DNA of 38,960 bases from an uncultured archaeon (GTDB lineage: Archaea > Nanobdellota > Nanobdellia > Woesearchaeales > CAIVOO01): NCBI GenBank assembly GCA_903842985.1, contig CAIMOB010000038.1, forward strand, positions 1-38,960, written 5' to 3'. Positions within the stretch are counted from its first letter, which is position 1, and each line of letters begins with the position of its first letter. This document shows, in pieces, positions 4,520-28,782 of this stretch. Both the position numbers and the translations under genes were made by a program. Below the pieces are notes generated by a model, which saw only the letters and a list, made by a program, of their open reading frames with translations, was not told the origin of the DNA and searched no databases.

Positions 4520-4547
4520 GTGCAAATCCCTTTTAGCGGACTTGCAC
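4520..4547. other. Stem-loop overlapping the pilin stop codon
   Basis: GTGCAA (4520-4525) pairs with TTGCAC (4542-4547), with three further inner pairs after one mismatch. The loop CTTTTAGC holds the stop codon of the pilin gene on the minus strand. Its AAATCC arm and TTTAGCG loop resemble the hairpin at 8128-8152. Confidence 0.45.
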
Positions 4548-5066: not shown

Positions 5067-5572
5067 ATTTTCACGTAAACTTTCTGCAATCCGCCGTATG
5101 GGTCGCTTGAACCAGGATAGGTAACAGTTACATCAAATATGTATGTTCCCGGATTTGCGCCGTTTGATTTTATGACTAGCACAGCAACATCATCCTTGTT
5201 GTTTGGTATTGTTAGCTTATTGTTGTATACTGCTTTCATACTGCTGCAGCTACATCCAGTTCCTATGCAGGTTTTGCATTGAACTGTGATTATAAAATCT
5301 GTTTGTGCCCCGAGAATGTTCAGTATGCCTATTCCCATTACCTCCTGCTTTCCTTTGTACTCTATCTGCGTCGGATAAACAGCAACTTTCATCCCCTGGT
5401 CCATTATCATAGACCGCAGCGCTGCCGTTGTCTGCTGGTCAATGCTTGCGGTCAGTACTGATGATTTGCTGAAGAAATTATATGCAAATGATATTGCAAG
5501 GACAAATACAACAATTGTTATGATTAGCGTAACAAGAAAATTTATGCTTAGCTCGAATCCTTTCTTTTTCAT
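5063..5572 (-). CDS. Pilin-like secreted protein (class III signal)
   Basis: The 169-residue protein begins MKKKGFELSINFLVTLI, a prepilin-like leader with likely cleavage near the glycine and a glutamate two residues later, as in type IV pilins. The hydrophobic helix spans about residues 8-31. The outer domain repeats the plan of the downstream paralog (MKVAVYPTQIEY, VMGIGILN, VYVKI end). It adds a cluster of cysteines (CKTC, GTGCSC) that may form disulfides. It overlaps the next gene by 4 bp. A T-rich stretch upstream separates it from the 75-residue membrane protein, and no clear TATA box is seen close by. Confidence 0.75.
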   Translation of the reverse strand: MKKKGFELSINFLVTLIITIVVFVLAISFAYNFFSKSSVLTASIDQQTTAALRSMIMDQGMKVAVYPTQIEYKGKQEVMGIGILNILGAQTDFIITVQCKTCIGTGCSCSSMKAVYNNKLTIPNNKDDVAVLVIKSNGANPGTYIFDVTVTYPGSSDPYGGLQKVYVKI

Positions 5573-5857: not shown

Positions 5858-6418
5858 TTAGTCTGTAATAGTTACTATCATCTGCTCTGATGCAACAGTG
5901 GTTGCAGTACATGCAGTGATAGCACCGCCTGCTGGAGGCGCGGCATTGCAAATGACAACAGTACAGATTCCAGTGTCTCCTGAATTTCCTGCAGCAAGTT
6001 TTAAAATTGTTTTCCAGTTTGCCGGTTTTCCTGCTATCATGGATTGGTCTGCGGCAGTTAATGTTGGAACATCAGCTGTTGGAAGTCCAGTACAACTTGT
6101 TATTCTTGGACCTGAATCAGAATACGTTGTTGCACTGTACCCACTGATAATTATTTGTGCTCCTGTTGTCAATTGAGACTTGCTTATTGACACCTGCGAT
6201 GGATCCAATGTCATTGGGTCGTCTGGCGTTGCTGGCTTGGTAACCTCGGTATCAGTTATAGAGGTTGTAACTTTTGCGCTAATCTTCCCAAACATACCTC
6301 TTACAAACAATACTCCGATTCCTAGAACTATCAGTGCTATAATCAATATGACAATTGCATTGATAGAAAGCTCTAATCCTGCTTTTTTGTACTTTCTTAA
6401 TTTCTTTAAAAAGCTCAC
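5858..6418 (-). CDS. Pilin-like secreted protein, GTG start
   Basis: The 186-residue protein has the leader FLKKLRKYKKAGLELSINAI. It is basic, with a likely cleavage site around KKAG, then a glutamate and a hydrophobic helix (about residues 17-40). The outer part is Ser/Thr/Ala-rich with a beta-domain-like pattern and paired cysteines (SCTGL, ICTVVICN, ACTAT). The start codon is GTG at 6418, chosen because GAGGTGA lies 6 nt upstream. It is the first gene of the cluster, with TATA-like boxes at 6457-6482, and may be the major pilin of this cluster. That last point is inference from its leading position. Confidence 0.72.
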   Translation of the reverse strand: MSFLKKLRKYKKAGLELSINAIVILIIALIVLGIGVLFVRGMFGKISAKVTTSITDTEVTKPATPDDPMTLDPSQVSISKSQLTTGAQIIISGYSATTYSDSGPRITSCTGLPTADVPTLTAADQSMIAGKPANWKTILKLAAGNSGDTGICTVVICNAAPPAGGAITACTATTVASEQMIVTITD

Positions 6419-14683: not shown

Positions 14684-14776
14684 CGCGCGGTTACGCGCTT
14701 ATTATTATGACACTTGTAAAATAGCTTTTTCCCGCCCTAACGCCTTTTTCTCTGAAAAAGGGGTTTGTTTTATAAC
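14684..14776 (-). repeat. Dispersed structured element, copy A
   Basis: Read on the minus strand from the T2SF stop codon: an A/T-rich lead, an 8-bp hairpin CCTTTTTC-AGA-GAAAAAGG, the conserved block GCGTTAGGGCGG, an A-rich linker, the identical 19-mer CTATTTTACAAGTGTCATA, and a GC hairpin GCGCG-TAAC-CGCGC (14685-14698). Copy B at 34628-34728 has the same order. The stem differs at three base pairs, always with both partners changed. Confidence 0.75.
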
Positions 14777-15657
14777 AGTCCCTGCGCCAGCGAAAGTATG
14801 AAAACAGCAATTGTAATCAGTATCAGAGAATGCTTTATGCCCTGCATCGCTGCGCCTTCTGCAAGTTTTCCAATGACAAGCCCTGCAAACAGCCCCTGCA
14901 GCGAGGCGAGCATTATCAGCACGCCGTGAAGGCTGACAAACCAGTCCCTAACTGAAGTTACGAATGCGGGAAATGATGAGAAAGCAATGTGGACTGTCTT
15001 TGTCATCCCACTGAATCCTGTTTTCATAATTCCTACTGTAGACTGCGCCTGTTCAAGGTTTGACATGTAGGGAATCAATAAGTTCTGTATGACAATCATA
15101 ACAACCAGGAAAACCATGAAAATCACATAGCTTTGGATTATTTGAGTGTTCGCAGCTGCCCTTCTTTTCTGCTTTATTCTCCTTATTTCAACAACAGATG
15201 AGGTTATTGCTTCAAGAACATCCTCTATGTTGCCGCCGCTCATCTCTGCCTCTATCACAGAAGCTATTGCTCTTTTGATTACTGCGTTTTTTGTTTCGTT
15301 TGCAAATACTGTCAGCGACTTGTGAATTGGGATTGCCCACTCTATCTGGTGTGCAAGCTTTACAACATAGGGTGTCAGGGCGCCGTAATCTATTGTAGAT
15401 ACGTGAAGTATTGCCTTTGGTGCAGGCATGCCTGACCTTATGGAACCTACAAGGTTTCTTACAAACTCAGGGAATTTTGACTCTATTTCACGCTGGTGGG
15501 CAAGTTTTACCAGGAATCCCACCCAGAAAGGAAGCCATCCAACGGTCACTACAATAATAAGCAAAGGAATAAACCAGGGTGTTGTGCGAAAGAACAGTAT
15601 GTCTATGAAAAATAATGTCAGCGCGAAAACGATTCCGATGATGTAATTCTTTTTCAT
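14770..15657 (-). CDS. Type II/IV filament platform protein with one T2SF domain (TadC/FlaJ-like)
   Basis: The 295-residue protein has two N-terminal helices (about residues 5-50), a cytoplasmic T2SF domain (about 60-165, with FPEFVRNLVGSIRSGMPAPKA and the helix EAEMSGGNIEDVLEAI), then three further helices towards the C-terminus. T2SF proteins form the inner-membrane platform turned by the secretion ATPase. Archaellum FlaJ carries two such domains in one chain. Here the partner domain is on the adjacent gene, with ATG and stop overlapping (TAATG), so the two are translationally coupled. The plan is closer to bacterial TadB/TadC. It ends the filament operon; its stop codon merges into the repeat copy A. 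Confidence 0.85.
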   Translation of the reverse strand: MKKNYIIGIVFALTLFFIDILFFRTTPWFIPLLIIVVTVGWLPFWVGFLVKLAHQREIESKFPEFVRNLVGSIRSGMPAPKAILHVSTIDYGALTPYVVKLAHQIEWAIPIHKSLTVFANETKNAVIKRAIASVIEAEMSGGNIEDVLEAITSSVVEIRRIKQKRRAAANTQIIQSYVIFMVFLVVMIVIQNLLIPYMSNLEQAQSTVGIMKTGFSGMTKTVHIAFSSFPAFVTSVRDWFVSLHGVLIMLASLQGLFAGLVIGKLAEGAAMQGIKHSLILITIAVFILSLAQGLL

Positions 15658-17696
15658 TATACCTCTGGCTGTGTCAGTTGCAGGAACATGAGGAATACTA
15701 TATTTAATATTGGAATGACGATATAGGATCCTACAACAACAAGGGTGTCAACAGGCAGTCCTGCCACTGTTCCTCCAAGCAAGCTTATCATGGATAATGC
15801 TGCTATGAAGAAAAGCGGTGCAGCAATAAGTATTCCTGTATAAATATCTGAATAGGTCGAAATTGTTTCCTCATATTTTGACCTCTCGAGCTCATACTCT
15901 GTCATCGCCTCTTCAGATTTCTCGCTCATGTATGTCTTAAGGTCGCCGCCGCTCTCTATTGTGCTCACCATACCGTCAATGAATTCCTTAAATGTGGGGG
16001 AAGGTGTTGTCAGCGCAATTGTCTTAAGGGCGGTGACAAAGTCATAGCCAAATATATTTATGTATTCAACCACCTTGTTTACTTCAACTGATATCTCCCC
16101 GTATTCCTCTGATTCTGCAATCAATTCAAACATCTTAGTGGGAGGAACTCCTGAAGATGCAACAGCAGCCATGTGATTTATTGCGAAAGGCAGATTTGTC
16201 CTTATGTTTCTTCTTCTCTGCTTTATCTTGCTGAAGGGATAGCCATAAAATGAAATAAACGAAATTGTGGTTGTGAGTATTGTAAGCAGCAGCGATTTGA
16301 ATAGCACAAGAAAAAAGGGATTGCCAAGGGCTGAAAATAAAAAGAGGAAAAGCACAAATGAAACAATTGATACAGTCATTGATACAAATACCATTATGTT
16401 GACGTATGTATTGGCAAGCATCTGTATGTTTGCAAGTCTCAGTGCATTGTAAAGATACTTGAAGAAATCAGGAAATGTGTCAATCAGGAAAATGCTTATT
16501 CTTTTGACAAATATGTTCGCAAGCGAGCCCAAAAATGATGGCTTGTAAATTTTTGACAGGGCCCTCGCTTCCAGAAGCTTTCTTATCCTTGATGCCTCCT
16601 CTGCTATCGCTGTCTTGGGTGCAGATTCAGGTGTAACCGGAACAAGTTTTTTCCTTCTTAGCTCAAGCGCCCTTTTCGGAACCTCTGTGCTTTCGGAGAT
16701 GTATGTCATCTCTTTTATCCCGAAAAACTTTTTAACCATGCTTATTATATACTCGCTTGTAGAAACAAACCTTCTTTTTTCTTTTTCCAGGGCTGTGGGC
16801 CTGGGCACCTTTGGTCTTCTGGGAACCTTTCCAAACAAAACCTTGAAAAAGCTTATCAAAACAAATTCTTTTTTAAGCTTCGATGCCGGTTTTTCGATTT
16901 TGGGAGGCGCTTCAATCTTCTGGGGTGCTGATTTTTCGATTTTAACCATAACTTGCTTTGCTTCAGAAGGTTTAATCTCGGGAATTTTTTTAACTTCAAT
17001 CGGCTTGATTGCAGGAACAGTTATTTTTTCTTCTCTTCTTCTTTTTGTGAATATCTTCCTGACTGACTCTTTTATCCTGCTGAAAATTCCTGCAAACGCA
17101 GAAGGCTTCTTCATTTCAGGAACATGTATCTCTTTCAGCTGGATATGATATTCCTTCGGGACAAATTTAATGTGCGGCATTTCTGTCTTGATTTTCTCAA
17201 GATGAAGTCGCTCATAGGGCAATAGTATTGGTTTAGTGGTGGCTTCTTTCGGCGGCGCAGGCAGCCTGATTTGCTTCCTGCTGGACCACGAAAACCACCT
17301 TTTCTTTTCCTGCGGTCTTCTGGTTGCAGCTGCCTCTGCAATTATTTCGCGCGTCGGTATTCTCATTCCTGTCTCTTTTGCCGCAAACTCAGATATCTTT
17401 TCAAGATATTCCCTGTCTTTGGAGGTTTCGTAGAATATTTTTGCATTAAGCAGCTCTATTTTCTTAAGCAGGGAATAAATGTAAGAATTGTATCCGGCAA
17501 TCCACTCCCTTTTTGATTTTCCCTTAAGAAGCTGAGCAAGCTTTTTTTTGTACTCAAAATAGCTGTATTTCCCGCCCTGGTATTCATCAAACAGGGTGGT
17601 TGAATTCTTTATCAGGCTGTCCTTGTAGTGCTCGTAAAGCTCTACTTCGCGCAGCAGTTCAAGCACATTTCTGACATCAGACTTTATGTTCTTCAT
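15657..17696 (-). CDS. Large T2SF platform protein with long cytoplasmic extension
   Basis: The 679-residue protein has about 410 hydrophilic residues before its first membrane helix. The extension begins with a helical part (1-120), then a Pro/Lys-rich linker with repeats of the kind KPIEVKKIPEIKPSEAKQ. The C-terminal third holds helices near 425-485, a T2SF domain (about 500-625, NLPFAINHMAAVASSGVPPTKM, STIESGGDLKTYM) and two final helices. The pair with the 295-residue protein would make the platform. The extension could dock the ATPase or a cytoplasmic scaffold; no known domain is recognised in it. It overlaps its upstream neighbour by 4 bp and its downstream partner by 1 bp. Confidence 0.83.
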   Translation of the reverse strand: MKNIKSDVRNVLELLREVELYEHYKDSLIKNSTTLFDEYQGGKYSYFEYKKKLAQLLKGKSKREWIAGYNSYIYSLLKKIELLNAKIFYETSKDREYLEKISEFAAKETGMRIPTREIIAEAAATRRPQEKKRWFSWSSRKQIRLPAPPKEATTKPILLPYERLHLEKIKTEMPHIKFVPKEYHIQLKEIHVPEMKKPSAFAGIFSRIKESVRKIFTKRRREEKITVPAIKPIEVKKIPEIKPSEAKQVMVKIEKSAPQKIEAPPKIEKPASKLKKEFVLISFFKVLFGKVPRRPKVPRPTALEKEKRRFVSTSEYIISMVKKFFGIKEMTYISESTEVPKRALELRRKKLVPVTPESAPKTAIAEEASRIRKLLEARALSKIYKPSFLGSLANIFVKRISIFLIDTFPDFFKYLYNALRLANIQMLANTYVNIMVFVSMTVSIVSFVLFLFLFSALGNPFFLVLFKSLLLTILTTTISFISFYGYPFSKIKQRRRNIRTNLPFAINHMAAVASSGVPPTKMFELIAESEEYGEISVEVNKVVEYINIFGYDFVTALKTIALTTPSPTFKEFIDGMVSTIESGGDLKTYMSEKSEEAMTEYELERSKYEETISTYSDIYTGILIAAPLFFIAALSMISLLGGTVAGLPVDTLVVVGSYIVIPILNIVFLMFLQLTQPEV

Positions 17697-17905
17697 GGTT
17701 TGTCTTTTATTTCTGTTGTTCTCACAAGCCTCCTGCTCTCTGCTGTTAACTGAAGAACCTTATTTTTCAGATAATTGTATCTTATCATTGCTTCTTCAGC
17801 TTCGCTGCCGCTGTTTACTCTTTTGCCAAGAAGTTCATCGTACATGTCAGATACTACCAGCAACTTTTCCATGTTTCCCCTCAGCTGTTTTATTGTGTCT
17901 TTCAT
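17693..17905 (-). CDS. 70-residue helical protein in the filament operon
   Basis: The protein is short, soluble and predicted helical: MKDTIKQLRGNMEKLLVVSD, then a second helix around EEAMIRYNYLKNKVLQLTAE. It has no cysteine and no membrane segment. It overlaps the genes on both sides by 4 bp (ATGA), so it is translated together with the Cys-pair protein and the large platform protein. A structural adaptor role is likely from position only; no family is recognised. Confidence 0.7.
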   Translation of the reverse strand: MKDTIKQLRGNMEKLLVVSDMYDELLGKRVNSGSEAEEAMIRYNYLKNKVLQLTAESRRLVRTTEIKDKP

Positions 17906-18609
17906 GGAGCTGCCTCTGGCGTAGGTGCTGGTGGAGTTACCGGTGCTGGCGCAGGCACTGGTACTGCTGCTGGCGGAGTTGCGGATGCCGGTGCTGTTGG
18001 CATCTGCATCTGCTTTGCCATTTTAACTTCATTCCTGCACATATCCTGTGACATTGTGTTCGCAAGTTGGCTGCACTGGCTTTCATCACCATTCTTTATC
18101 GCCATTCTGTAATGCCAGCTTTCCTTGCAGCTGTCTGCGCGCCCCTCGGGCGCCTGATTGCAAAGCTCGATATTCTCCTGCGCAACCGCAAGCTCAGTTA
18201 CAACTGATGCTGTACAGTCTGTCTTCATTAGCTCCTCGGTGATTTTCTCGCAGTAGCTCTTGTCTTTTTCAGCGAGCGCCTTTGCGCTGTAGATGCTGTT
18301 TGCACAGCTTGTTCTCGCCCATTCTTCGCTCATCTGGCTGCAGAAGCTTTCATCGCGTTTATTCATCGCAGAATCCCTAAGCAGCGAGTCTTTGCAGTTG
18401 ACTTCGCATTTTCCGCAGGTGTTTACACACATTTTATAGTTCTGATACTCAAAACTGTCATTTGTAACGCCTGCAAATTTATCATAGCTTGGCGCTTTAT
18501 TCAATGCTCCCTTCTGCAGGAACTGCAGACCAATTAAAACAAGGCATACAAATGCAAGCACGACAATTGCAACTGTCTTGCCTGTAGATTTTTCTCCTAA
18601 TCCATCCAT
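17902..18609 (-). CDS. Membrane-anchored Cys-pair repeat protein with Pro/Ala tail
   Basis: The 235-residue protein has one N-terminal helix (about residues 10-31, TVAIVVLAFVCLVLIGLQFL) and then an outer domain. After an opening CVNTCGKCEVNC cluster there are four helical units of 30-35 residues. Each has one cysteine after an acidic turn (such as DESFC, DKSYC) and a second about 12 residues later (TSC, TDC, DSC, DMC). The last 40 residues are Pro/Ala/Val-rich and probably extended. The four units probably form disulfide-linked helical hairpins. The start at 18609 is preferred because a G-run ribosome site sits just before it; the longer frame starts 21 nt earlier inside the ATPase gene end. 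Function is unknown; it sits between the ATPase and the platform. Confidence 0.7.
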   Translation of the reverse strand: MDGLGEKSTGKTVAIVVLAFVCLVLIGLQFLQKGALNKAPSYDKFAGVTNDSFEYQNYKMCVNTCGKCEVNCKDSLLRDSAMNKRDESFCSQMSEEWARTSCANSIYSAKALAEKDKSYCEKITEELMKTDCTASVVTELAVAQENIELCNQAPEGRADSCKESWHYRMAIKNGDESQCSQLANTMSQDMCRNEVKMAKQMQMPTAPASATPPAAVPVPAPAPVTPPAPTPEAAP

Positions 18610-18619
18610 TTTAACCCCC

Positions 18620-20251
18620 CTATAAACCAAATCTTTTCAATACTGATTTTTTATCTTTGTAATAGCTGTTTATTATTTCAGCAACTTCCTTGAATCCTGC
18701 TATTTTCTGGTCAGCCATCTTCTGCAGGAGTTTTTGCCTTATCTTTACTTCTGCTTCAAGCTCGCTGATGGGCGTTCCTGTGTTCTTATTTACTTTTTTC
18801 AGCACAACTGAATTGCCGTTGAACTTGAAATTGTCTTTTGCAGGATCCCATTCAAACAGCTTGTTTGATTTTATCCCTTCCATTCCTCCTCCGGCACTAA
18901 CCTCAATTATCTCAACCATCTCAGTCATTCGCCTGAAGCTTTTTTCAGGCGTCTTTATGTGCGTTGTGACAGCAACAATGTCAAGAGATTCAATTAGAGA
19001 AGCGGGTAATTCGATAGGTGGCGTCTCCAGTCTCTTGACCATTGTTGCAACAGAGCCTGCGTGAAATGTTGCGAGTGATGGGTGGCCTGATGCCATTCCC
19101 TGGAACAAGACAAATGTTTCCTTGCCCCTTGTTTCCCCAAGAATGACATAATCCGGCGCCTGCCTGAATGTTTCCCTCAGCAAATCAAACAATGTTATTT
19201 CGCCGTACTGCTCGCCAAGAACAGTCGGTATTCCGAAGCCCGCCCTTGTGACAGAAGGCAGCCAGTTGATGTGGGGCAGGTTCAATTCGCGCGTATCCTC
19301 AATTGAGCATATTCTTGCTTCAGGCGGTATGAACTGCGATATCGCGTTCATGAATGTTGTCTTGCCTGAGGCTGTTTCCCCGACAGTCATTATGTTCAGC
19401 TTGTGCTCCAGCGCAAACCAGAGGTACGCAACTGAAAGCGCGTCTGCTGTGTTGAACATTATCAAATGTATTGGGGTCCAGGGCTCCTCTGTGAATTTCC
19501 TTATCGTGAATGTCGGGCCTCTTGTCGTGATGTCCTCTGTATAAGTTGCATTGACTCTTGAGCCGTCCGGAAGTGTTCCGTCAAGAAGCGGTTTTGCGTA
19601 TGAGACATACCTTCCTGCACGCTGTGAAAGCTTTTCAACGAAATCTATAAGCTGCTGCCTCTCTTGAAACGTCACGTTTGTCCTTAGGTTTGCATATTTC
19701 CTGTGGACAATGTAAAGCGGAAAGCCGTCGCCGTTGCATTCTATGTCCTCTATGTAATAATCGCGGATCATGGGCTCAATCTCATTCAGCCCGATTGAAT
19801 TCCTGTAAATGTAATACATCAGCTTGTTGTAGGTTTCCTCTGAAACTCTTATTCCAAGCTCGAGCAGTATCGACTGCATGCTCTTCTCAAGGTACTTCAG
19901 TATCGCCGGAGTTGTCTTTGTTTTTACAAAGCTTATGTTTATCATTTCCTCAAGCCCTATCTGGAGAAGCTCGAGAAGCTCTTTTTCAGTGTCAGAAAGC
20001 ACCGGTTCCTCAACAGAATACATAAGCTCCTTGTCTGTTTCATCCCAATAAATGTGGGCAAATGAGTAAGGCGGAATCAGCGGGTATCTTATGTCTATTT
20101 TTGTTTTATCTTCTGTTTCAGGAAGTGTTATTATCTTGGGTCTTAAATCAATGTAGAACGTGCTTGTTGATTTTTCCTCTTCTTTTGGCGCTTCTGCAGC
20201 TAAAGCTGGCGCTTTTGCAATCATTCCTTTACCTAAAAACCGTAGTGCCAC
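18620..20251 (-). CDS. Secretion/filament assembly ATPase (VirB11/TadA/ArlI type)
   Basis: The 543-residue ATPase has an N-terminal region (about 1-250) and a RecA-like core. Walker A is GETASGKTT (291-299), the Asp box is ICSIEDTREL (314-323), Walker B is DYVILGE (367-373) and the His box is GHPSLATFHAG (389-399). These are all the hallmarks of VirB11-like enzymes that power pilin assembly or retraction. The C-terminus is a helical extension. The start is GTG at 20251, preferred because GAGGTG lies about 8 nt upstream. A TATA box with CGAAAAG BRE (20289-20306) gives it a separate promoter, so ATPase, Cys-pair protein, helical peptide and both platform proteins form one operon. Confidence 0.93.
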   Translation of the reverse strand: MALRFLGKGMIAKAPALAAEAPKEEEKSTSTFYIDLRPKIITLPETEDKTKIDIRYPLIPPYSFAHIYWDETDKELMYSVEEPVLSDTEKELLELLQIGLEEMINISFVKTKTTPAILKYLEKSMQSILLELGIRVSEETYNKLMYYIYRNSIGLNEIEPMIRDYYIEDIECNGDGFPLYIVHRKYANLRTNVTFQERQQLIDFVEKLSQRAGRYVSYAKPLLDGTLPDGSRVNATYTEDITTRGPTFTIRKFTEEPWTPIHLIMFNTADALSVAYLWFALEHKLNIMTVGETASGKTTFMNAISQFIPPEARICSIEDTRELNLPHINWLPSVTRAGFGIPTVLGEQYGEITLFDLLRETFRQAPDYVILGETRGKETFVLFQGMASGHPSLATFHAGSVATMVKRLETPPIELPASLIESLDIVAVTTHIKTPEKSFRRMTEMVEIIEVSAGGGMEGIKSNKLFEWDPAKDNFKFNGNSVVLKKVNKNTGTPISELEAEVKIRQKLLQKMADQKIAGFKEVAEIINSYYKDKKSVLKRFGL

Positions 20252-20288
20252 CTATCTTACACCTCTTTTGTATAGAATATTTAAAAAG

Positions 20289-20308
20289 TATTTATTAACT
20301 TTTCGTAC
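20289..20308 (-). promoter_or_regulatory. BRE-TATA promoter of the ATPase operon
   Basis: Minus-strand ACGAAAAGTTAATAAATAC places a BRE directly before a TATA-like box. Initiation 25 nt downstream (about 20268) would just include the GAGGTG site at 20260-20265. Confidence 0.5.
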
Positions 20309-20320
20309 ATTAATCAAATA

Positions 20321-21052
20321 TTAGATAATTGGCTGTGCTTCTACTATCAAGTAGTCAGCTTCAGAATCAAGCGTGAAAACAAGGTCATACTCTTTGTCAA
20401 ATGTTGAATTTTTTACATGAACTGTTACAGTCGAATAGCCCAGGTAGTTCCCTGTTTTGCCGATTTCAGAGTAGCCAGTATCTAATGATGATGCTGACCC
20501 ATCCTCACCATTGACATAGAATTTGAAAAGACGGGTTGACGGCGATGCAACCTCTGTCTCCGTATCCTGCGTCTTGTAATAAATATAATTAATTATCTGG
20601 TCGGAAGTGAAATTTGTGTAGTTGTTTTCTGAGCCAAGCCTTGAGAAATTAACTTTGATGATTGAATTTTCAAGAATGAATGAATTGTTATATTCTGCTG
20701 CGCTGACCTCTGCGTTTGCTGTTACCAGCACATTCCCAAGCTCATTCTGTGTTCTCGGCTCCAATATATCTGCCTTTGTATCCATCTCCCACTTCAATAC
20801 ATTGTCCGCAACTGTTAATGTTCCTTTGTAAACTTCTATTGGTATCATGCGCTGGGAGCCCTTGCCCTCAAGGCCAACCTCCCTCACCTGCTGGTTTATG
20901 CTCAGGAACGCGTCCTTCATCCTCACAAAAACAGATTTGTCTTTTATGCTGTCCAATACGGGTGTCAGCGCTTCAAGCACAAGCACCATTATGAAAACAG
21001 AAATAAGTATGTAAAGCACTGCTGAAATCCAAACCTGTGATTTTTTGTGCAT
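20321..21052 (-). CDS. Pilin-like protein of the filament locus
   Basis: The 243-residue protein starts MHKKSQVWISAVLYILISV, a leader with KK-S and a hydrophobic helix (about residues 8-31), like class III signal proteins. The outer domain is beta-rich with repeats of aromatic and Asn/Thr residues. It has no cysteine. It ends YLIVEAQPII. It has its own promoter (TATA at 21073-21085), separate from the genes upstream and the ATPase downstream, so it may be a separately regulated pilin, possibly the major one. That is inference from promoter layout. Confidence 0.72.
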   Translation of the reverse strand: MHKKSQVWISAVLYILISVFIMVLVLEALTPVLDSIKDKSVFVRMKDAFLSINQQVREVGLEGKGSQRMIPIEVYKGTLTVADNVLKWEMDTKADILEPRTQNELGNVLVTANAEVSAAEYNNSFILENSIIKVNFSRLGSENNYTNFTSDQIINYIYYKTQDTETEVASPSTRLFKFYVNGEDGSASSLDTGYSEIGKTGNYLGYSTVTVHVKNSTFDKEYDLVFTLDSEADYLIVEAQPII

Positions 21053-21072
21053 ATTGCAAGAATAGTTTTCTT

Positions 21073-21104
21073 CTTTTTATATATCTTTCGCGCTATTTTA
21101 AAAT
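21073..21104 (-). promoter_or_regulatory. Extended BRE-TATA promoter of the 243-residue pilin gene
   Basis: Minus-strand AAAATAGCGCGAAAGATATA continues into the TATA box GATATATAAAAAG at 21073-21085, about 25 nt before the ATG at 21052. It overlaps the end of the upstream gene. Confidence 0.55.
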
Positions 21105-21518
21105 GATGCAATCCTTCAAATCGCATTCCTTAACATTATAGGACTGGCATCCTTCAGGGTATATTGTGAATTTATCTTTTATTGTAATGTTGCTTATTTT
21201 TATCTTCCTGTCAACCCTTGCCCTGAAATCCATTTGGGGCGTGTACTTTGTTTCATTGCCTGCGGATACAACAAGCCTTGCGGCCGAGCCTCCGCCGAAT
21301 GATTCGACTCTAAATGCCAGGATATTATCCTCATATGACATCGAATCGCCGACAATCCTGAATGTTATCCCTGCGCACTCGATTGAGGATTTTGATACCT
21401 CCGAGCTGTAGTTCCCGCCAGAAGTTGTTGTCGTATAGCCTAGCACGAATATGAATATTCCTAAAAAGACAAAAAGCGCGAAAAGAAAAAGCGTTATTGT
21501 TATTTTTCTTTCTGGCAT
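21093..21518 (-). CDS. Membrane-anchored protein of the filament locus
   Basis: The 141-residue protein has one N-terminal helix (about residues 6-28, ITLFLFALFVFLGIFIFVL) with a short basic lead (MPERK), then a beta-rich outer domain with cysteines near IECAG, EGC, KEC and KDC. No KK-small cleavage motif is present, so it may stay anchored rather than be processed like the pilins. It ends 40 nt before the next pilin gene, whose promoter overlaps its 3' end. Family not recognised; position suggests a minor filament or anchoring component. Confidence 0.65.
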   Translation of the reverse strand: MPERKITITLFLFALFVFLGIFIFVLGYTTTTSGGNYSSEVSKSSIECAGITFRIVGDSMSYEDNILAFRVESFGGGSAARLVVSAGNETKYTPQMDFRARVDRKIKISNITIKDKFTIYPEGCQSYNVKECDLKDCIILK

Positions 21519-21523
21519 TTCCT

Positions 21524-22033
21524 TCAGTCACATTCGTGGATGTCTGTCTCAACCAGTGAGTTTGAAGGGCATGAAATAATATTGCCTTCAATTTTTATTT
21601 TTGGTATTATATTGATCTGTTCTATTGTTCCTATTTCATCACTATAGTTCAATTCAGCCACTTTGTATACCCTTGAACGCAGTATTGGATTTTTTTCAAG
21701 ATTTATATCTGTTGTGTTGACATCTATAGAACCTATTAAGTTGACCTGAAGATCATAGATATCTGACGTGCCGTCATTTTCAACAAAGAATTCCATGTAC
21801 TTCGGATCTGTTGTGTTTGAATAGCAAAGCCTTTTTTCATCCTTGACCTTCAGAAATTCCAGCTTCACGTCGGTGGTGCACTTGATTTCAGTGTTTGATT
21901 TGTCCTTTGCGAATTTGGCTGTGTCCTCAACATAGGTTCTGCCCCAGTTCATGACAACTGCGCCAAGCGCAACTGCGAATGCTATAAGCAGGACTGTCGC
22001 TATCAGTGGAGATACTGCTTTTTTTGACATCAT
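21524..22033 (-). CDS. Archaeal pilin-like protein
   Basis: The 169-residue protein begins MMSKKAVSPLIATVLLIAFA, close to the classic archaeal type IV pilin N-terminus (KKAVSPLIATVLLIA), with cleavage expected next to the KK-A. The hydrophobic helix runs to about residue 27. The outer domain is an Ig-like beta sandwich pattern (KYMEFFVENDGTSDIYDLQV) with four cysteines (KCTT, LCYS, SCPS, HEC). The ATG-ATG start overlaps the stop of the upstream two-TM gene by 4 bp. Of the pilin-like proteins in the window this is the most certain by sequence. Confidence 0.82.
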   Translation of the reverse strand: MMSKKAVSPLIATVLLIAFAVALGAVVMNWGRTYVEDTAKFAKDKSNTEIKCTTDVKLEFLKVKDEKRLCYSNTTDPKYMEFFVENDGTSDIYDLQVNLIGSIDVNTTDINLEKNPILRSRVYKVAELNYSDEIGTIEQINIIPKIKIEGNIISCPSNSLVETDIHECD

Positions 22034-22323
22034 CTTTTCAGCCCCCTTATTATATCATCAAGCTTTTTTTCCTCTGCCTTCATTGTCCTGACATAAGGAA
22101 CTGTGCCGATTATCAAGGCAAGCAGACCCACAACTATGAGTACGTTAAGCATGTTCTTTGAAATGTATGCGTTGATGAATCCGATAACAGCAACAAACAA
22201 AAAGCAGAAATATATGAAAAGGCTTTTGTTGAGGACAAGCATCGCCTTTTCGCGGTTAAGCCTTGATTTTTCAACCTCAACCTCAATTATCTCCTTTTCT
22301 ATGTTTGAAAGTGTCTTTTTCAC
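22030..22323 (-). CDS. Two-TM coiled-coil membrane protein, GTG start
   Basis: The 97-residue protein has an N-terminal charged helix (KEIIEVEVEKSRLNREKAML), two membrane helices (about residues 33-52 and 58-76) and a C-terminal basic tail with EEKKLDDIIRGLKR. The start is GTG at 22323, chosen because GAGGTG lies 5-6 nt upstream. It is flanked by pilin genes and overlaps the next by 4 bp. A membrane adaptor for the filament is plausible from position; no family match is recognised. Confidence 0.68.
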   Translation of the reverse strand: MKKTLSNIEKEIIEVEVEKSRLNREKAMLVLNKSLFIYFCFLFVAVIGFINAYISKNMLNVLIVVGLLALIIGTVPYVRTMKAEEKKLDDIIRGLKR

Positions 22324-22335
22324 TTTGCACCTCTT

Positions 22336-22815
22336 TTAACAATTCTTTACGTTGCTTATCATTGCCTTCTTTTCCGGGCAGACAATTTCAAGGTCGCCTT
22401 TCGCTGTAACAGGCACAAGTTCTATGTAGCCAACGGAATCAAGCGAGGAAATGTTTGATATGCGCTTCATGCGCGCGGGTTTTATTATTTGTGTGCTTTC
22501 AATCACTTCCCAGTTTGCAAGCGTTGTTAAATTGTCGTATATCCTTAATATTTGTTTTGTAATTCTTAAATTACCTCTGTTAGTTACATTGATATATAAA
22601 TTTATCGGTGTTGAATTGGCCTGGCAGGCCCCATCTATTGAGACTGCAACGCTGTCGCACAATTCTGTGCTGTAATGCCTGTCCTTGATATTCTGCGTTG
22701 TTTCTGTTGTGTAATCCTTCATCCAGTTGTTCAGGAAAATGCTCAATGCCACTGCAAAACCCATCAGCAGTACAAATTCAATCCAAAGTGAAACGCCTTT
22801 TTTATTCATAAACAT
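22336..22815 (-). CDS. Pilin-like protein of the filament locus
   Basis: The 159-residue protein begins MFMNKKGVSLWIEFVLLMGF (or at the second Met, 22809). It has KK-G before a hydrophobic helix with an internal glutamate, as in type IV pilins. The outer domain is a beta-sandwich pattern (INLYINVTNRGNLRITKQIL) with three cysteines and ends in VKNC. The plan resembles the 169-residue pilin next door (IEIVCPEKKAM versus IISCPSNSL), so they are probably diverged paralogs. The start overlaps the previous gene by 14 bp. Confidence 0.75.
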   Translation of the reverse strand: MFMNKKGVSLWIEFVLLMGFAVALSIFLNNWMKDYTTETTQNIKDRHYSTELCDSVAVSIDGACQANSTPINLYINVTNRGNLRITKQILRIYDNLTTLANWEVIESTQIIKPARMKRISNISSLDSVGYIELVPVTAKGDLEIVCPEKKAMISNVKNC

Positions 22816-23266
22816 ATACCCTCTTTGCTGTTTTGCTTTCAGTCTTGAATATTGCCTTTATGCTGCCTGCCGGCGCTGAAAAATAATAAATATCCTCGTC
22901 AGTTATTACAGCCACTTTTCCCGTCCTGTTTATGCTGCCTGCTTCATTGTCCTGTAACGGGAGCTGGTTATTTATATTTATTGTTTTCCCGTATGCGTTG
23001 TAAACATAAACTCCTGACTGCGATGAGTAAATTGAAATAAACCTGAAATTCTTGTCTCTTGCTTTTGCAAACTCTGCAAATTTCTGTGTGAAATCCTCAA
23101 ACTTCCCCTGGTTCGCCGCGAACGGAGCCTCTTTCACATAGTTTTTCCACAGCTCGGTGAATTCTTTTTCTGGTTTCACAGTTGATTTTGTTGAAAGGAC
23201 TGTGCCAAACGCCATTGAAATCAGCAGCACTGCAATAATTATGTACATCTGTGATTTTTTGTTCAT
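22802..23266 (-). CDS. Pilin-like protein next to the Kelch protein
   Basis: The 154-residue protein starts MNKKSQMYIIIAVLLISMAF, with KK-S followed by a hydrophobic helix (about 7-25). The outer part has a helical segment rich in aromatic and charged residues (FTELWKNYVKEAPFAANQGK) and then beta strands (GVYVYNAYGKTI). It has no cysteine. Its start overlaps the stop of the giant Kelch gene by 4 bp, so the two are translationally coupled. A role at the filament tip, joining the Kelch protein to the shaft, is inference from coupling. Confidence 0.72.
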   Translation of the reverse strand: MNKKSQMYIIIAVLLISMAFGTVLSTKSTVKPEKEFTELWKNYVKEAPFAANQGKFEDFTQKFAEFAKARDKNFRFISIYSSQSGVYVYNAYGKTININNQLPLQDNEAGSINRTGKVAVITDEDIYYFSAPAGSIKAIFKTESKTAKRVYVYE

Positions 23267-26200
23267 ATTATCTCTATTGAAACATTCGGCACTCCGTTTG
23301 CCAGCCCGTTGTTCTTTATCACCAGCGTGTATTTTCCCTCCTGCACATAATCTTTTCCGCTAATCAGCAGGTCCGCATAGTTCAAAAGTATGTTTAGTTG
23401 GTATTCATCAGGGTTAAGGTCAAAGCCCATCGATGGGCTGATTTTGTCAAACAATGTCCTGTCTTCAAGCAGTTTGTTTCTCTCGCTAAGGGGCGCTTCG
23501 GGCTTTGTTACGAAAATGAATGTGTCTGAGTCCACTGCACCTGTTACCTTTCCTCCTGCAACAGGTGTTCCGCCTGTGTTTGTGCCTGCGCCGTATTTTG
23601 GATATCTTGAAGTGCCAGGTATCGCGTCTGATGAAGTGCCGTAAACTATTCTTGAATTCGAGACGCTGCAGCCGCTGCATTCTATTGTCAGCTCTGTCAC
23701 ATCAACCCTTGTTTTCGATATTCTCTTGACGTAGATTGTGTTAGACGTTCCGACAGCTGAACCATTAATATAGGCAACTGCATAGATTGAATTTATTCCG
23801 GCAGGTATGGATACGTTATTGAATTCAAACTCCAAATCAACAAGCTTTAATTCAACTGAAACATTGCTTGCAATGCCGTTGACAAACAAAGTCATGTTTG
23901 TCACATTCTGGCTGATTGTTCCTTTCAAATCTATCAAATCTTTTTTTGTCGGTGATTCATGAGGATAGAGCATGACATTGACTGCCCCTGCTGCCACAAT
24001 CGTGAGCTTATAGTGCCTTACAACATAGTTGCCTGCATTATCAAGTGTCTTGAAATGGAACCAGCTTGTTCCCGAAGGAGCTGTTATTGTCATCCCTGTC
24101 GATGATGCAGGAAGCTCTATTGCATTGTCAGGCATTGTTGTCGGATTCGAGTCAATAAGGTAGCTGAAGCCGTAGATGCCCGAAGGCGTGTCAGACGCTG
24201 TCCAGCTGAAGCTCACAGCTGTGCTGTAATAAGTCAGATTTTGATTTGGATGCGTTGAAGACGTAAGTGTTATTGTTGGAGGTATTGTATCAATCTTGAT
24301 TCCGTCGGATAAATCGCTTGCAATTTCTGTTATGTCTGTTGAAAGCTCCCAGGTGTCGTTGAAGCGAGTAGATGTAGGATTGTTGTATCCGCCGAACATC
24401 ACGATTTTATTCCTTGAACTATCAAAGACCATGCCCTGCTGATATCTTCCAAGAGGCCCGTTTGCTGGATTCAATTGTGTCCAGGATGTTCCATCGAACA
24501 GCCAGGTGTCATTTACTGTGTTTCCACTTGATATCAATCCGCCAAAAATCACCACATTTCCTGTCGAGCTGTCAAAAGCTGTTGATTGGGAATAACGCGC
24601 CGCAGGACTTGCCAGATTAATCTTTTTCCAATCTGTGCCGTTGAATTCCCATGTATCACTGAAAAAGTTTGCCGAGCCTCCTGTTTTGTTTATGCCGCCG
24701 AACAAGACGACTTTATTTCTTGAACTGTCAAATTCCATTCCATTATCGCAGTACCTGTTTGGAGGTGAAGTTGCTGTGCTTACGTTAACCCAATTAATTC
24801 CGTCGTATTCCCAGGTTTGGTCAGAACAACTAAGCACGAAAGGACTAAGCGAGACATTCATGCAGCCGCCGAACATCACTATTTTTCCCCTGCTGCTGTC
24901 GTATGTCATTGCAGGACCATTTAATCTTGGCGGATTTGTTGAAGTTGATATCTTTGTCCAGGTTCTTGCAGCAGGACTGTACTCCCAAGTCTCGTTAAGA
25001 CTTTCTTGGGAGATGTCTTGTCCGCCATAAAGAACAACCTTTCCCCTGCTGCTGTCATATGCCATTCCGTAACTGCTGCCTTCCTCTGGTGCGCTGGTTG
25101 TTGTTATTTCAGTCCAGGTGCTTGTGGCAGGATTATATTCCCAAGTGTCATTTTTGAAACCTGCTCCAGTTGTATACCCTCCAAACACAATAATCCTGTT
25201 TCTATTGGAGTCATAAACCATGCCTTGGTTTGTTCTTTTATCTGGCGCACCTATTGTGCTAATATTTTCCCAGCTGTAATCCCCGCTTCCATTGTACATC
25301 TTCACTTCAAATGTGTAATTGTGATTGTTTGTCAATGCCAGTCCTGTTGCATTCACAAACATTGCAGAACTTACACCAGTCCATCCTCTTATGTAGCTTG
25401 ACGCTGTCACATCCTTTATTCTGTAGCTGTAAGTGAAGTTTCCTGCAAGATTAGTTATCCAGTGGGCATACAGCGAGCTGTTGTGATTGCTCCAGTCTCC
25501 CTCGTCGTAAACCGCGAGCGTCGCATTAATCTGTGGCGCTGTCCCGTTCACTGAATAATAAATTGTATCACTGTCTTCTGCGATGTTTCCAGCCTGGTCC
25601 CTCACCTGATAGTAAACTGTCTTGTAGCCATAGCCGCCTGAAAGAACCCACGCCATTGTCGGCATGCATGGAACCCATTCTGTCCACTCGCCAACCTCAT
25701 TCCTATACCTGCAGTCCTTGACAGGAATCTCAATTTTTATTCCTCCTATGTTTGACATCTGCATTGTGCCTCCTGTTGGGCTTGTGTACGTTCCAAAGTT
25801 TCCTGTTGTGATGCTTGCTTCCCAGGTGTCATTATATATTATAGAAGAGCTGGCATTAGTTCCTCCAAAGAGAATTATTTTGTTTCTTACAGGATCAAAG
25901 ACAGAGCCATAAGGACCTGGATTTACTGGAGGCGAGCCAACTGTTGATGCCGGCTCCCAGGTAGTGTCATAGAATTCCCAGGTATCAAAATAGGTCATTG
26001 GACCATAGTCTCCACCTCCGAACATGACTGCCCTGTGCCTGATTGAATCGTACAGAAGCGAAGGCCTTACTCTTGGAAGAGGGTTGTTCACTGTATTAAC
26101 CAGCGCCCAATGATCAGTATACTTGTAGGTCAGGCTTGGGAAATAAATCCAGCCTATTCCGCCAAAAAATAATATTCCATTAATGCTTGGTATGTAATCT

Positions 26201-28518
26201 GCGCCTGCGAGGATTGTGCCTCCAAATGGCGGGTTGGTTGTTGAAGCCACATAACGCCATTGAGCGCCGTCGTATTCCCAAACCTGTGTATTCGTCGGCC
26301 CGAAAAGCTTTACCACATTTTTATCGCTGTCAAAAATCATCAAGTACGGATCGCTGGAGCCGGGCGGGATTTGGTTTGCACTGCTGATTTCTGTGCAGGT
26401 TCTTGCGGGAATGTCGCATTCAATTGTCCTGCTCATGTTAACGCCAGATCCGCTTCTGTCATAATAAAATGCAACAACCCTGTCCCTTTTGCTGTCATAG
26501 GTCCAGTCCCTTGAATTCCAAGCATGGTGGCACATGATTGTGGTGTTTCCTATTCCGCTGACATTAATTTCCTGCCATGCATGTGTTGCAGGATCATATT
26601 CCCAGGAACCATCGATGCAGTATGAGCCTGCAACTCCTGTATTCATTCCGCCGAGAAGGACAACCTTGTTCCTGTTGCGGTCAAAATACATTGTAGAGAT
26701 TCTTGGCGACGGCCTACTGCCTGTGGTGGTTATTTTCTGCCAGGAATACCGAGTTGTCATTGGAATGGCTGTTTCCTTCAGCGAGAATTCCCAAGTTATA
26801 ATACCAAAATAAATGATGCCAACCTCTCTTACTGGGTCATAAACAACAGGCGCCTGTATCGGATAAAATACTGCATTTACTAAACCGCCGGTGGTGCCGT
26901 TATAAACCGCAAGCGCTCCGCCCATGTGAATTATTATCTGGTCAAGCGAAGAATCATAAGCCAGCCTTGCCCCGCAGCTGCCGCTGCTTCCGCCAAAAGA
27001 AAGCTGCGTCCAGGTGGTATTGTTGGGGTTGTATTCCCATCCATTTTCACCATCGAAAAAAATCCTGTCCCTTGAAGGATAATAAACCATATGAGGCAAA
27101 TCACTTCCCCAGCATTCGTTTGGGGCATTTGTTGTTGTTATTTTCTGCCAGTTGGTGCCGTCGTATTCCCATGTATCATTAAAATTGGCGCTTCCGTTGT
27201 ATCCGCCAAACAGCACAATCCTATTTCTTGAACTGTCAAAAGTCATTGCAACAACTTTTCTTGGCTCAGGTGCGTTTGCTGTGGTTATTTTCTGCCAGTT
27301 GGTGCCGTCGTATTCCCAGGTGTCGTTGTAATACAATGTGTTGTATCCGCTACTGTTATAATACGAACCGCCGAATAATACAACCTTGTTTCTTGAACTA
27401 TCATAAGCCATTGCATAATTTGCCCTTGGCGAAGGTGCGTTTGCTGTATTGATTTTTTCCCAACTTGTCTTTGATTTTGTGCCTGCATATTCCAAATAAG
27501 GCGGGCTTGTTGCACCTGACACCAATGACAGGGGATTCTGCCAGGTGTAGTCGCTTCCTGCGCCGTTTGCCTGCCAGGCATTCGCATCAAAGTAAACGCA
27601 ATCAGCAGATAATCCGCTTAATGCAAAAAAGTTTTCAACAGCTGTGCAATTGCTGGCAAAAGAGCTGTATAAATAAACAGTTGCATAAGCGCCTGAACTA
27701 TTTATCAGCGCAACTGAAATATTCTCTGTGCCTGACAAGTCCACAGTACTGTTGTCCGCAGTTATTTCTGGGGATCCAAGAAGATAATTGCTTATAACGT
27801 ACCCAACAGAAATATAGTCCCTGCCGCCGTAGACCAGCGGAGCATAAGAAGCATGGTAATAAGGATAAGGCGCTGGCTCCAGATACTCCCACGTGTCGTT
27901 CAAATAAATATCCTGATATGAAGGACTTACCTTGCCTCCAAAAATAACAGACCTTTGCCTGCTGCTGTCATACACCATTGAGAAAGCGCTCCTTGTGCTC
28001 TGCGAAGTTTCAGGTGTCGGGCTGTTTACAGGGGTTACCCAGCCCAATCCCCGCTGATTTGTCATGTAATCAGAATAATTCAGAAGCAATGTCACTTCCT
28101 TTGTTGTTGTCATCCCATCATTGTTCTCATCGAATATTGCTATGGAGGCGTTCGGCGGCGTATTGTCAAGAATAACATTTGTCTCTGCTGTGGATAAGTT
28201 TGCGCCTGCTGACACGTTTGTTGTTATTGTCAGATTTTCGTTTTCTGTTGAAGTGACTAATATGCTTCCTTCATAGACAGCATCATTGTTCGGGTCTGTA
28301 AGATTGAGCGTGGGTGTGCCTGCATTGATTTTGAATGTGTTAACTGTGACATTCAAACCAAGAGTTTGTGCCGCATATTTGAAATTTAATGTGGTGCCGT
28401 TGCTGACGTATGGCGGCGTTGCTGTAAATACTCCGAATGTTGCAGCAAACACAGCAGGCAGTGCTATCAGAACTAAAGCTATCACCAAGCCAAGCCTTGC
28501 CTTTTTACTTATTGCCAA
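23263..28518 (-). CDS. Giant secreted Kelch-repeat surface protein of the filament locus
   Basis: The 1751-residue protein has an N-terminal signal sequence (LGLVIALVLIALPAVFAA) and no other clear membrane helix. After a beta-sandwich region (about 30-150) come 12 Kelch-like units (about 175-905). Typical cores are YDSSRNKVVLFGG followed by NDTWEYDGTNW. A 140-residue insertion separates units 1 and 2. A linker with Ig/FnIII-like sequence (about 905-1080) leads to six more units (about 1085-1380), then an Ig-like domain (about 1395-1510) and a C-terminal region ending NVSIEII. Eighteen units suggest three six-bladed propellers. The start is TTG at 28518; a TAG two codons upstream rules out earlier starts. 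It leads the operon, so it is probably an adhesin or tip protein of the filament. Confidence 0.88.
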   Translation of the reverse strand: MAISKKARLGLVIALVLIALPAVFAATFGVFTATPPYVSNGTTLNFKYAAQTLGLNVTVNTFKINAGTPTLNLTDPNNDAVYEGSILVTSTENENLTITTNVSAGANLSTAETNVILDNTPPNASIAIFDENNDGMTTTKEVTLLLNYSDYMTNQRGLGWVTPVNSPTPETSQSTRSAFSMVYDSSRQRSVIFGGKVSPSYQDIYLNDTWEYLEPAPYPYYHASYAPLVYGGRDYISVGYVISNYLLGSPEITADNSTVDLSGTENISVALINSSGAYATVYLYSSFASNCTAVENFFALSGLSADCVYFDANAWQANGAGSDYTWQNPLSLVSGATSPPYLEYAGTKSKTSWEKINTANAPSPRANYAMAYDSSRNKVVLFGGSYYNSSGYNTLYYNDTWEYDGTNWQKITTANAPEPRKVVAMTFDSSRNRIVLFGGYNGSANFNDTWEYDGTNWQKITTTNAPNECWGSDLPHMVYYPSRDRIFFDGENGWEYNPNNTTWTQLSFGGSSGSCGARLAYDSSLDQIIIHMGGALAVYNGTTGGLVNAVFYPIQAPVVYDPVREVGIIYFGIITWEFSLKETAIPMTTRYSWQKITTTGSRPSPRISTMYFDRNRNKVVLLGGMNTGVAGSYCIDGSWEYDPATHAWQEINVSGIGNTTIMCHHAWNSRDWTYDSKRDRVVAFYYDRSGSGVNMSRTIECDIPARTCTEISSANQIPPGSSDPYLMIFDSDKNVVKLFGPTNTQVWEYDGAQWRYVASTTNPPFGGTILAGADYIPSINGILFFGGIGWIYFPSLTYKYTDHWALVNTVNNPLPRVRPSLLYDSIRHRAVMFGGGDYGPMTYFDTWEFYDTTWEPASTVGSPPVNPGPYGSVFDPVRNKIILFGGTNASSSIIYNDTWEASITTGNFGTYTSPTGGTMQMSNIGGIKIEIPVKDCRYRNEVGEWTEWVPCMPTMAWVLSGGYGYKTVYYQVRDQAGNIAEDSDTIYYSVNGTAPQINATLAVYDEGDWSNHNSSLYAHWITNLAGNFTYSYRIKDVTASSYIRGWTGVSSAMFVNATGLALTNNHNYTFEVKMYNGSGDYSWENISTIGAPDKRTNQGMVYDSNRNRIIVFGGYTTGAGFKNDTWEYNPATSTWTEITTTSAPEEGSSYGMAYDSSRGKVVLYGGQDISQESLNETWEYSPAARTWTKISTSTNPPRLNGPAMTYDSSRGKIVMFGGCMNVSLSPFVLSCSDQTWEYDGINWVNVSTATSPPNRYCDNGMEFDSSRNKVVLFGGINKTGGSANFFSDTWEFNGTDWKKINLASPAARYSQSTAFDSSTGNVVIFGGLISSGNTVNDTWLFDGTSWTQLNPANGPLGRYQQGMVFDSSRNKIVMFGGYNNPTSTRFNDTWELSTDITEIASDLSDGIKIDTIPPTITLTSSTHPNQNLTYYSTAVSFSWTASDTPSGIYGFSYLIDSNPTTMPDNAIELPASSTGMTITAPSGTSWFHFKTLDNAGNYVVRHYKLTIVAAGAVNVMLYPHESPTKKDLIDLKGTISQNVTNMTLFVNGIASNVSVELKLVDLEFEFNNVSIPAGINSIYAVAYINGSAVGTSNTIYVKRISKTRVDVTELTIECSGCSVSNSRIVYGTSSDAIPGTSRYPKYGAGTNTGGTPVAGGKVTGAVDSDTFIFVTKPEAPLSERNKLLEDRTLFDKISPSMGFDLNPDEYQLNILLNYADLLISGKDYVQEGKYTLVIKNNGLANGVPNVSIEII
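27137..27318. repeat. 35-nt identical direct repeat inside the Kelch gene
   Basis: Positions 27137-27171 and 27284-27318 are identical over 35 nt, coding on the minus strand for the EYDGTNWQKIT part of neighbouring Kelch units. Identity at the DNA level suggests recent duplication or gene conversion between blades. Confidence 0.8.
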
Positions 28519-28537: not shown

Positions 28538-28566
28538 TTTTTTATATCCTATTTCAATTTAAACCT
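28538..28566 (-). promoter_or_regulatory. Promoter of the Kelch-led filament operon
   Basis: Two TATA-like boxes lie upstream of the TTG start on the minus strand: GGTTTAAATT (28557-28566) and GATATAAAAAA (28538-28548). The outer box would give a leader containing the AGGTG site at 28527-28531. The inner one would start transcription almost at the TTG. Confidence 0.5.
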
Positions 28567-28738
28567 TTTTATTTTTCTCTGATAAGTCTGACCTCAATTC
28601 TTTCATCGCAAGCAGCTCTCTTCTTATGCCTGCTCTTATTATGTCTGTGATATTAGTATAAAGTCCAGAAGCTATTGCTTTTTCTATCTCAATATAGAGT
28701 TCTTCAGGTACTGTGATTGTTGTTTTCCTAAATTTCAT
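28559..28738 (-). CDS. Ribbon-helix-helix (CopG/Arc-type) regulator
   Basis: The 59-residue protein fits a ribbon-helix-helix dimer. A basic strand (FRKTTITVPEEL) is followed by two helices (YIEIEKAIASGLYTNITDII, RAGIRRELLAMKELRSD) and a charged tail. The strand would insert into the DNA major groove. The ATG at 28738 is used rather than the TTG six bases upstream because it starts right at the DNA-binding strand. Two near-identical palindromes lie over and before the start, suggesting autoregulation. The gene ends 40 nt before the promoter of the Kelch-led operon and points toward it, so control of that operon is possible but not shown. Confidence 0.85.
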   Translation of the reverse strand: MKFRKTTITVPEELYIEIEKAIASGLYTNITDIIRAGIRRELLAMKELRSDLSEKNKKV

Positions 28739-28782
28739 ATTCAATACATTCTAAGTAAGTTTTGAGTATGTATTGAATACAT
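28736..28782. promoter_or_regulatory. Palindromic operator pair at the RHH gene
   Basis: A perfect 15-bp palindrome ATGTATTGAATACAT (28768-28782) lies just after a TATA-like box (28783-28792, minus). A second, imperfect copy, CATATTCAATACATT (28736-28750), covers the start codon. Their centres are 32 bp apart, close to three helical turns. This is the usual layout for an autoregulated RHH repressor. Confidence 0.65.

Follow-up and report, generated by a model that had tools for sequence, protein, structure and literature searches.

The stretch of DNA analysed here (the window, 38,960 bp) is contig C38 in the genome of an uncultured archaeon of the order Woesearchaeales, an assembly of 879 kb (0.88 Mb) in 60 contigs that is 92.65% complete. 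Its minus strand carries an operon of twelve genes, running from position 28518 to position 14770, and its gene content is that of a type IV filament locus with a giant secreted protein at its head. The coordinates and strand of all twelve genes were verified in a check of the open reading frames; in operon order they are (C, L and G numbers throughout denote contigs of this genome, compared loci and compared genomes, respectively):

23263..28518, minus strand: giant secreted head protein, 1751 residues (open reading frame, Kelch Pfam match, hydropathy, conserved slot)
22802..23266, minus strand: pil154, pilin-like, adjoining the giant, proposed tip minor pilin (class-III signal, 4-bp overlap, structural model)
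22336..22815, minus strand: pil159, pilin-like protein (class-III signal 31/32, weak UpsA match)
22030..22323, minus strand: mem97, conserved two-helix membrane protein (two hydrophobic stretches; 29 open reading frames matched in the locus set)
21524..22033, minus strand: pil169, PilA-like protein (TIGR02537 above cut-off; class-III signal 26/26)
21093..21518, minus strand: pil141, single-helix membrane protein (class-III signal inconsistent, 7/18 family members)
20321..21052, minus strand: mem243, conserved pilin-like protein with the signal KKSQVWISAVLY (class-III signal 24/25; in nearly all loci)
18620..20251, minus strand: assembly ATPase, GspE2/PilB-like, VirB11 family (PF00437 (T2SSE), E=9e-30; PDB match)
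17902..18630, minus strand: Cys242, membrane-anchored Cys-rich protein, accessory (its model matches 4 open reading frames across all loci, in other places)
17693..17905, minus strand: hel70, small protein predicted to be helical, encoded between ATPase and platform (54 open reading frames matched)
15657..17696, minus strand: T2SF_A, predicted N-terminal platform half with an N-terminal extension of ~400 residues (PF00482, E=2.7e-17; ArlJ 4-248)
14770..15657, minus strand: T2SF_B, predicted C-terminal platform half (PF00482, E=4e-16; ArlJ 197-411)

Seven of the eleven junctions measured on these genes are overlaps of 1-14 bp: giant/pil154 (4 bp), pil154/pil159 (14 bp), mem97/pil169 (4 bp), ATPase/Cys242 (11 bp), Cys242/hel70 (4 bp), hel70/T2SF_A (4 bp) and T2SF_A/T2SF_B (1 bp). 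An earlier sequence-only reading of this DNA, which had described a twelve-gene minus-strand filament locus with overlaps of this size, is thus borne out by the coordinates and gap measurements, and its assignments of a Kelch protein, a T2SSE-type ATPase and two T2SSF proteins are strongly supported by Pfam (PF24681, PF00437 and PF00482). Its count of four pilin-like and two further membrane proteins also holds, the class-III signals placing pil154, pil159, pil169 and mem243 in the first group and pil141 and mem97 in the second. The Cys-pair repeat protein that it listed is present in the window as Cys242, and is not part of the core, given its few and differently placed matches.

The same gene order is found in many family-level lineages, which puts the locus far beyond chance. 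A close ATPase (51-68% identity, the next matches being at 38% and below) is encoded by 18 of 60 relatives of the same order, and 80 loci recruited by the window ATPase from named genomes (Woesearchaeota, Pacearchaeota, Nanoarchaeota and other archaea) were searched with profiles made from the locus genes. Two arrangements were distinguished. Variant A consists of giant, pil154, pil159, mem97, pil169, pil141, mem243, ATPase, hel70, T2SF_A and T2SF_B, while variant B, which is found in Pacearchaeota among others, combines related pilin, ATPase and T2SF genes with a shorter T2SF_A, and lacks the giant as well as hel70, the latter being conserved only in the giant-bearing variant. Where a variant A locus could be judged, that is where its contig extends past pil154, a giant secreted protein lies beside pil154 in 26 of 27 cases; the reading frames of the two genes overlap in 17 of 25 pairs, and overlap or nearly so in most loci. 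The NFACT-R gene that comes after T2SF_B is the next gene in many relatives too.

In five genomes the giant is located apart from the motor genes, at 34 kb (G001), 20 kb (G047) and 23 kb (G232), or on other contigs (G031 and G397). The sequence-only reading had taken such unlinking as counting against it; unlinking does occur, and both the giant module and the motor module are retained in all five genomes, the giant of G001 and G047 keeping its position ahead of its pilin genes. Pilin/tip genes and motor genes are therefore modules that can lie apart on the chromosome. Eight loci (L044, L075, L080, L086, L095, L097, L098 and L104) display two or three tandem giants before one pilin set, each with the C-terminal region described below; these giants may serve as alternative or paired tips. 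At L064:29-1108 and L037:17213-17998, upstream of the pilus genes, lie genes for secreted proteins that have GIGTTSP-type repeats and resemble fibre-type proteins.

The giant begins with a Sec-type N-terminus (...ALPAVFA/A, judged by eye), and no C-terminal hydrophobic anchor was found in its hydropathy profile. It is composed of three Kelch propellers (PF24681, E=4.6e-73), carried on a stalk of Ig and FN3 domains, and of a conserved C-terminal region:

26782..28008, minus strand: Kelch propeller 1, residues 171-579, six repeats, with an extra stretch of ~140 residues after repeat one (repeat model)
25804..26748, minus strand: Kelch propeller 2, residues 591-905, six repeats (repeat model)
24340..25278, minus strand: Kelch propeller 3, residues 1081-1393, six repeats, apparently inserted in an FN3-like domain (repeat model; junction J2)
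23263..24000, minus strand: conserved C-terminal region, residues ~1507-1751, proposed dock (alignment A3; profile search)

The giant probably holds three six-bladed propellers, because the 18 repeats found with the Kelch-repeat model fall in three runs of six. The scaffold left when the propellers are removed in silico can be aligned continuously with many relatives through both insertion points. Propellers 1 and 2 therefore look like a joint insertion into a single loop of an Ig-like domain (junction J1), and propeller 3 like an insertion into an FN3-like domain loop (junction J2). In one such local alignment ...NYTFEVKMYNGSGDYS / DLSDGIKIDTIPPT of the window giant (slash, junction) pairs with ...NYTFEVRAINNAGLRS--SAGKSDGIIVDITPP in L078. 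The insertion was judged from local alignments of this kind; a global alignment of the giants (A2) was unusable for the purpose, as it misaligned the propellers with other domains.

Among the 29 giants scanned with Pfam, Kelch is found in one, the window protein. The others display Ig-like Big_13 (18 of the 29 giants), fn3 (9), beta-helix (4), LamG (3), FG-GAP (1) and DUF2341 (1) domains. The nearest genome, G001, a member of the same family, is illustrative for this exchange: its giant occupies the same slot, with two HIT-type genes upstream as in the window and the same pilin genes after it, and contains beta-helix repeats and no Kelch, and it is 34% identical to the window giant over residues 1404-1750 (the last ~350). 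Of the 378 genomes sampled from the class, 17 encode Kelch proteins; ten of these loci were read in addition to the window, and neither the C-terminal region nor a pil154 neighbour is present in any of the ten. Kelch was accordingly rejected as a conserved pilus partner. The propellers are a lineage-specific passenger, and what is conserved in the giant is its Ig/FN3 stalk and its C-terminal region. The order proposed in the sequence-only reading thus recurs as giant, pilin, ATPase and T2SF, and its Kelch part does not. Naming the protein by its showiest domain misleads, as homologues in the same slot lack Kelch altogether.

Over their final ~240 residues the giants make up one family (alignment A3), and this region is the very C-terminus in nearly all of them. 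Profile positions ~20-115 match filamin Ig repeats in the PDB, while the rest of the region has no solved relative in the same search, and no Pfam family of its own was found for it in the scans of the giants. The region was detected in 20 of the 378 genomes of the class, all 20 belonging to the order of the window. The close ATPase is also present in 19 of these 20, and in 17 of the 19 the two lie within about 5 kb of each other by their listed coordinates, the exceptions being G232 (23 kb) and G397 (another contig). About 165 genomes of other orders in the class have the ATPase (about 49-57% identity for those listed), and none of them has the C-terminal region. Fisher tests of this co-occurrence (p=2e-6 in the set of relatives, p=4e-27 in the class sample) serve as a guide only, since the genomes share ancestry and hence are not independent.

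The machinery displays the marks of the type IV filament superfamily: a VirB11/GspE-type ATPase, a T2SF platform, pilins with class-III signals and, elsewhere in the genome, a prepilin peptidase. The best solved relative of the ATPase is 2OAP (364.7 bits; FlaI, 280.7 bits), which we take to be GspE2 of Archaeoglobus, and its score with the FlaI archaellum motor model (411.7 bits) lies under the cut-off of 550. In a tree of ATPases three others from the order group with the FlaI reference with full support, outside the clade of the window; this is a rough tree with long branches, a misplaced L097 and two reference sequences taken from the PDB matches. Residues ~337-352 of the window ATPase (VTRAGFGIPTVLGEQYGEI) include an insertion of several residues near Walker B relative to GspE2 and FlaI, which is also present in the subfamily consensus. 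T2SF_A and T2SF_B align to the N- and C-terminal halves of ArlJ, respectively, and are therefore best read, from these alignments, as one ArlJ-type platform split in two. No FlaH/ArlH was found in the genome at its present completeness, the sole PF06745 hit looking like a RadA recombinase. An archaellum was rejected on these grounds, that is the missing FlaH, the ATPase score under the FlaI cut-off and GspE2 as best solved relative. The sequence-only reading had reported both ArlH/FlaH and a prepilin peptidase as not present: the first holds even genome-wide, and the second for the locus only, as a peptidase is encoded elsewhere on contig C54 (E=2.5e-13, GxGD motif), with homologues adjoining the giants in G012 and G051.

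As the only protein of the genome above the cut-off of TIGR02537, the archaellin/pilin N-terminal model, pil169 is likely the major pilin, and mem243 is a probable minor pilin by its signal. The class-III signal of pil154 is kept in 25 of 25 family members, and a confident model of this protein (predicted local distance difference test score, pLDDT, 92.2) consists of an N-terminal helix and two more helices followed by an all-beta domain. Foldseek gave no match to this model among solved structures at E<=0.001 (best E, 0.19), and a profile search of the PDB gave none.

The window locus was also considered as the sole filament system of the cell, and rejected: contig C27 encodes a second, diverged T2SSE-type ATPase of 755 residues (C27 20551-22818; L176:551-2818), followed by an open reading frame with membrane helices, a possible platform gene interrupted by the contig end. 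Most or all relatives have a counterpart of like size and similarity to this ATPase, which probably belongs to a second filament system. Far from the giant, the minus strand of the window encodes three small proteins (4533-5066, 5063-5572 and 5858-6418) that begin with class-III-like sequences (KKSAVSLSTNF..., KKKGFELSINF... and KKAGLELSINA...), have no Pfam or NCBIfam match of note and are possible pilins of that second system. An independent link between Kelch and a filament system is found in G138, a genome of another order, in which L170 (2143-11617) encodes a 758-residue ATPase of the second type, a 700-residue partner, small pilin-like proteins and a Kelch protein of 1090 residues with a C-terminal membrane helix. 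Immediately upstream of the window giant (28559-28744, minus strand) lies a gene for a small protein of ribbon-helix-helix type, with weak Pfam matches only and possibly a local regulator.

Based on these observations, we consider it probable that the product of the locus is a type IV pilus bearing a giant, modular, PilY1-like tip adhesin that is not itself a pilin. In the scheme that we infer, from the processing of the pilins and their assembly to the tip position of the giant, its docking partner, its ligand and its role towards a host, the giant would be exported by Sec, and its conserved C-terminal region would dock on a complex of minor pilins (pil154, pil159 and mem243), which would prime the filament. 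Beneath this complex, PilA-like pil169 subunits would then be inserted by the ATPase and the split platform, moving the giant outward on its Ig/FN3 stalk. The ligand of the Kelch propellers would most likely be a partner cell's glycan or protein, or else a surface polymer. Several observations argue for a tip adhesin: the giant adjoins pil154 in nearly all judgeable loci, often with overlapping frames; its C-terminal region travels with the close ATPase; and the passengers are binding-type domains that differ between lineages. Binding domains that are exchanged on a stalk and putative dock that stay the same are what one would expect of a tip adhesin whose ligand demands change. The large filament tip or adhesin suggested by the sequence-only reading survives in this form, with a large secreted protein heading a conserved locus and the tip as its most economical role, and loses the Kelch domain as its conserved element. 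Some findings weigh against a tip cap. In one of the 27 judgeable loci (L064) another gene lies beside pil154, and 4 of 23 genomes of the order sample have the ATPase and no detected giant, partly owing to contig ends. The loci with two or three giants are more than a single-copy cap would obviously need, and a fold prediction of the C-terminal half of the giant with 25 relatives reached a pLDDT of 51 and was not used. The proposed placement of the giant on the filament draws on gene linkage.

The giant could instead be an S-layer-like or base-anchored surface protein around the exit of a pilus without a tip cap, as S-layer-like components have been predicted in several archaeal type IV pilus loci (Makarova et al., PMC4858521), and proteins proposed to form the surface layer of Mia14, an ARMAN archaeon, contain Kelch, YVTN and PKD domains (PMC5498576). 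We consider this unlikely, since the giant has no C-terminal membrane anchor and a lattice protein should keep its body, which is the very part that sister genera exchange, retaining only the stalk and the C-terminus. The reading of the filament as a short pseudopilus, serving a type II-like secretion device with the giant as its main exported substrate, would agree with the annotation of 2OAP as a type II secretion protein, with a use of the conserved C-terminal region as recognition signal and with the loci holding several giants. It is nevertheless improbable for a protein with its own Sec-type signal in archaea that, from general knowledge, are expected to have no outer membrane to cross, and for a locus encoding a PilA-like pilin with a typical signal. 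That the giant is a mere neighbour, a free surface adhesin sharing operon and timing with an ordinary pilus, is suggested by the five genomes in which giant and motor genes lie apart; we give this very little credence, as both modules co-occur even there and the giants of G001 and G047 still precede the pilin genes.

On biological grounds, contact of the filament with a host may be plausible. More tentatively, the order as a whole may possess one pilus with a universal dock, in which any receptor-binding domain could be swapped into the loops of the giant's stalk, changing the partner specificity of these presumed symbiotic archaea while the machine stays constant. Little is known of how Woesearchaeota and other DPANN archaea locate their partners and keep hold of them, and the locus represents a concrete candidate device. 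The part to trace is the C-terminal region together with pil154, and the part to read is the passenger domain, which, if the tip role is true, would be a marker of what each lineage binds. The profile of the conserved C-terminal region allows such putative tips to be listed in metagenomes.

When comparing the locus with known systems, the machinery is of a known kind, and a giant-tip family with a conserved dock and loop-inserted, exchangeable passengers appears undescribed; no description of the window locus was found in the open-licence literature searched. Like the archaellum (FlaI/FlaH/FlaJ), it has a homologous ATPase and platform, the platform halves aligning to ArlJ, and it differs in that no FlaH was found in the genome and in an ATPase under the FlaI cut-off and, in the tree, outside the FlaI clade. 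With the clade 1 archaeal pili of methanogens and Thermococci, for which DUF2341 tip adhesins have been proposed (PMC4858521), it shares an ATPase, two TadC-type proteins, several pilin-like proteins and a large proposed adhesin; DUF2341, however, is not in the window giant and is present in a single one of the 29 giants, the peptidase is not in the locus, and the closest ATPase in the PDB is GspE2. No Flp-type pilin or TadZ was recognised in general scans of the loci, in which no search was aimed at them.

The closest parallel in design is PilC/PilY1, a large modular non-pilin protein that caps the PilHIJK minor pilins of bacterial type IVa pili (PMC10191384): in both cases such a protein is linked to minor pilins and carries variable adhesion modules, the linkage here being one of genes. 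The window giant differs in a C-terminal region that matches no Pfam family found, the propeller family of the PilY1 C-terminus being absent from its Pfam matches and from the list of 25 families obtained with the 29 giants, and the system is archaeal, with no secretin and no retraction ATPase seen in the window locus. In the episymbiont Nanosynbacter lyticus, PilX2, a beta-propeller minor pilin, is required for the function of T4P-2 (a type IV pilus) in host binding (PMC12206443). The likeness lies in a beta-propeller at the pilus of an ultrasmall, host-dependent cell, although PilX2 is described as a minor pilin with an RCC1 propeller and the window propellers are of Kelch type on a separate, Sec-type giant. 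Exchangeable tips are also displayed by the Kil/Tad pili of Myxococcus (PMC12075869), in which one pilus machine is combined with diverse tip modules for contact with other cells; those tips are trimers of minor pilins, whereas the tip candidate of the window is a giant non-pilin protein.

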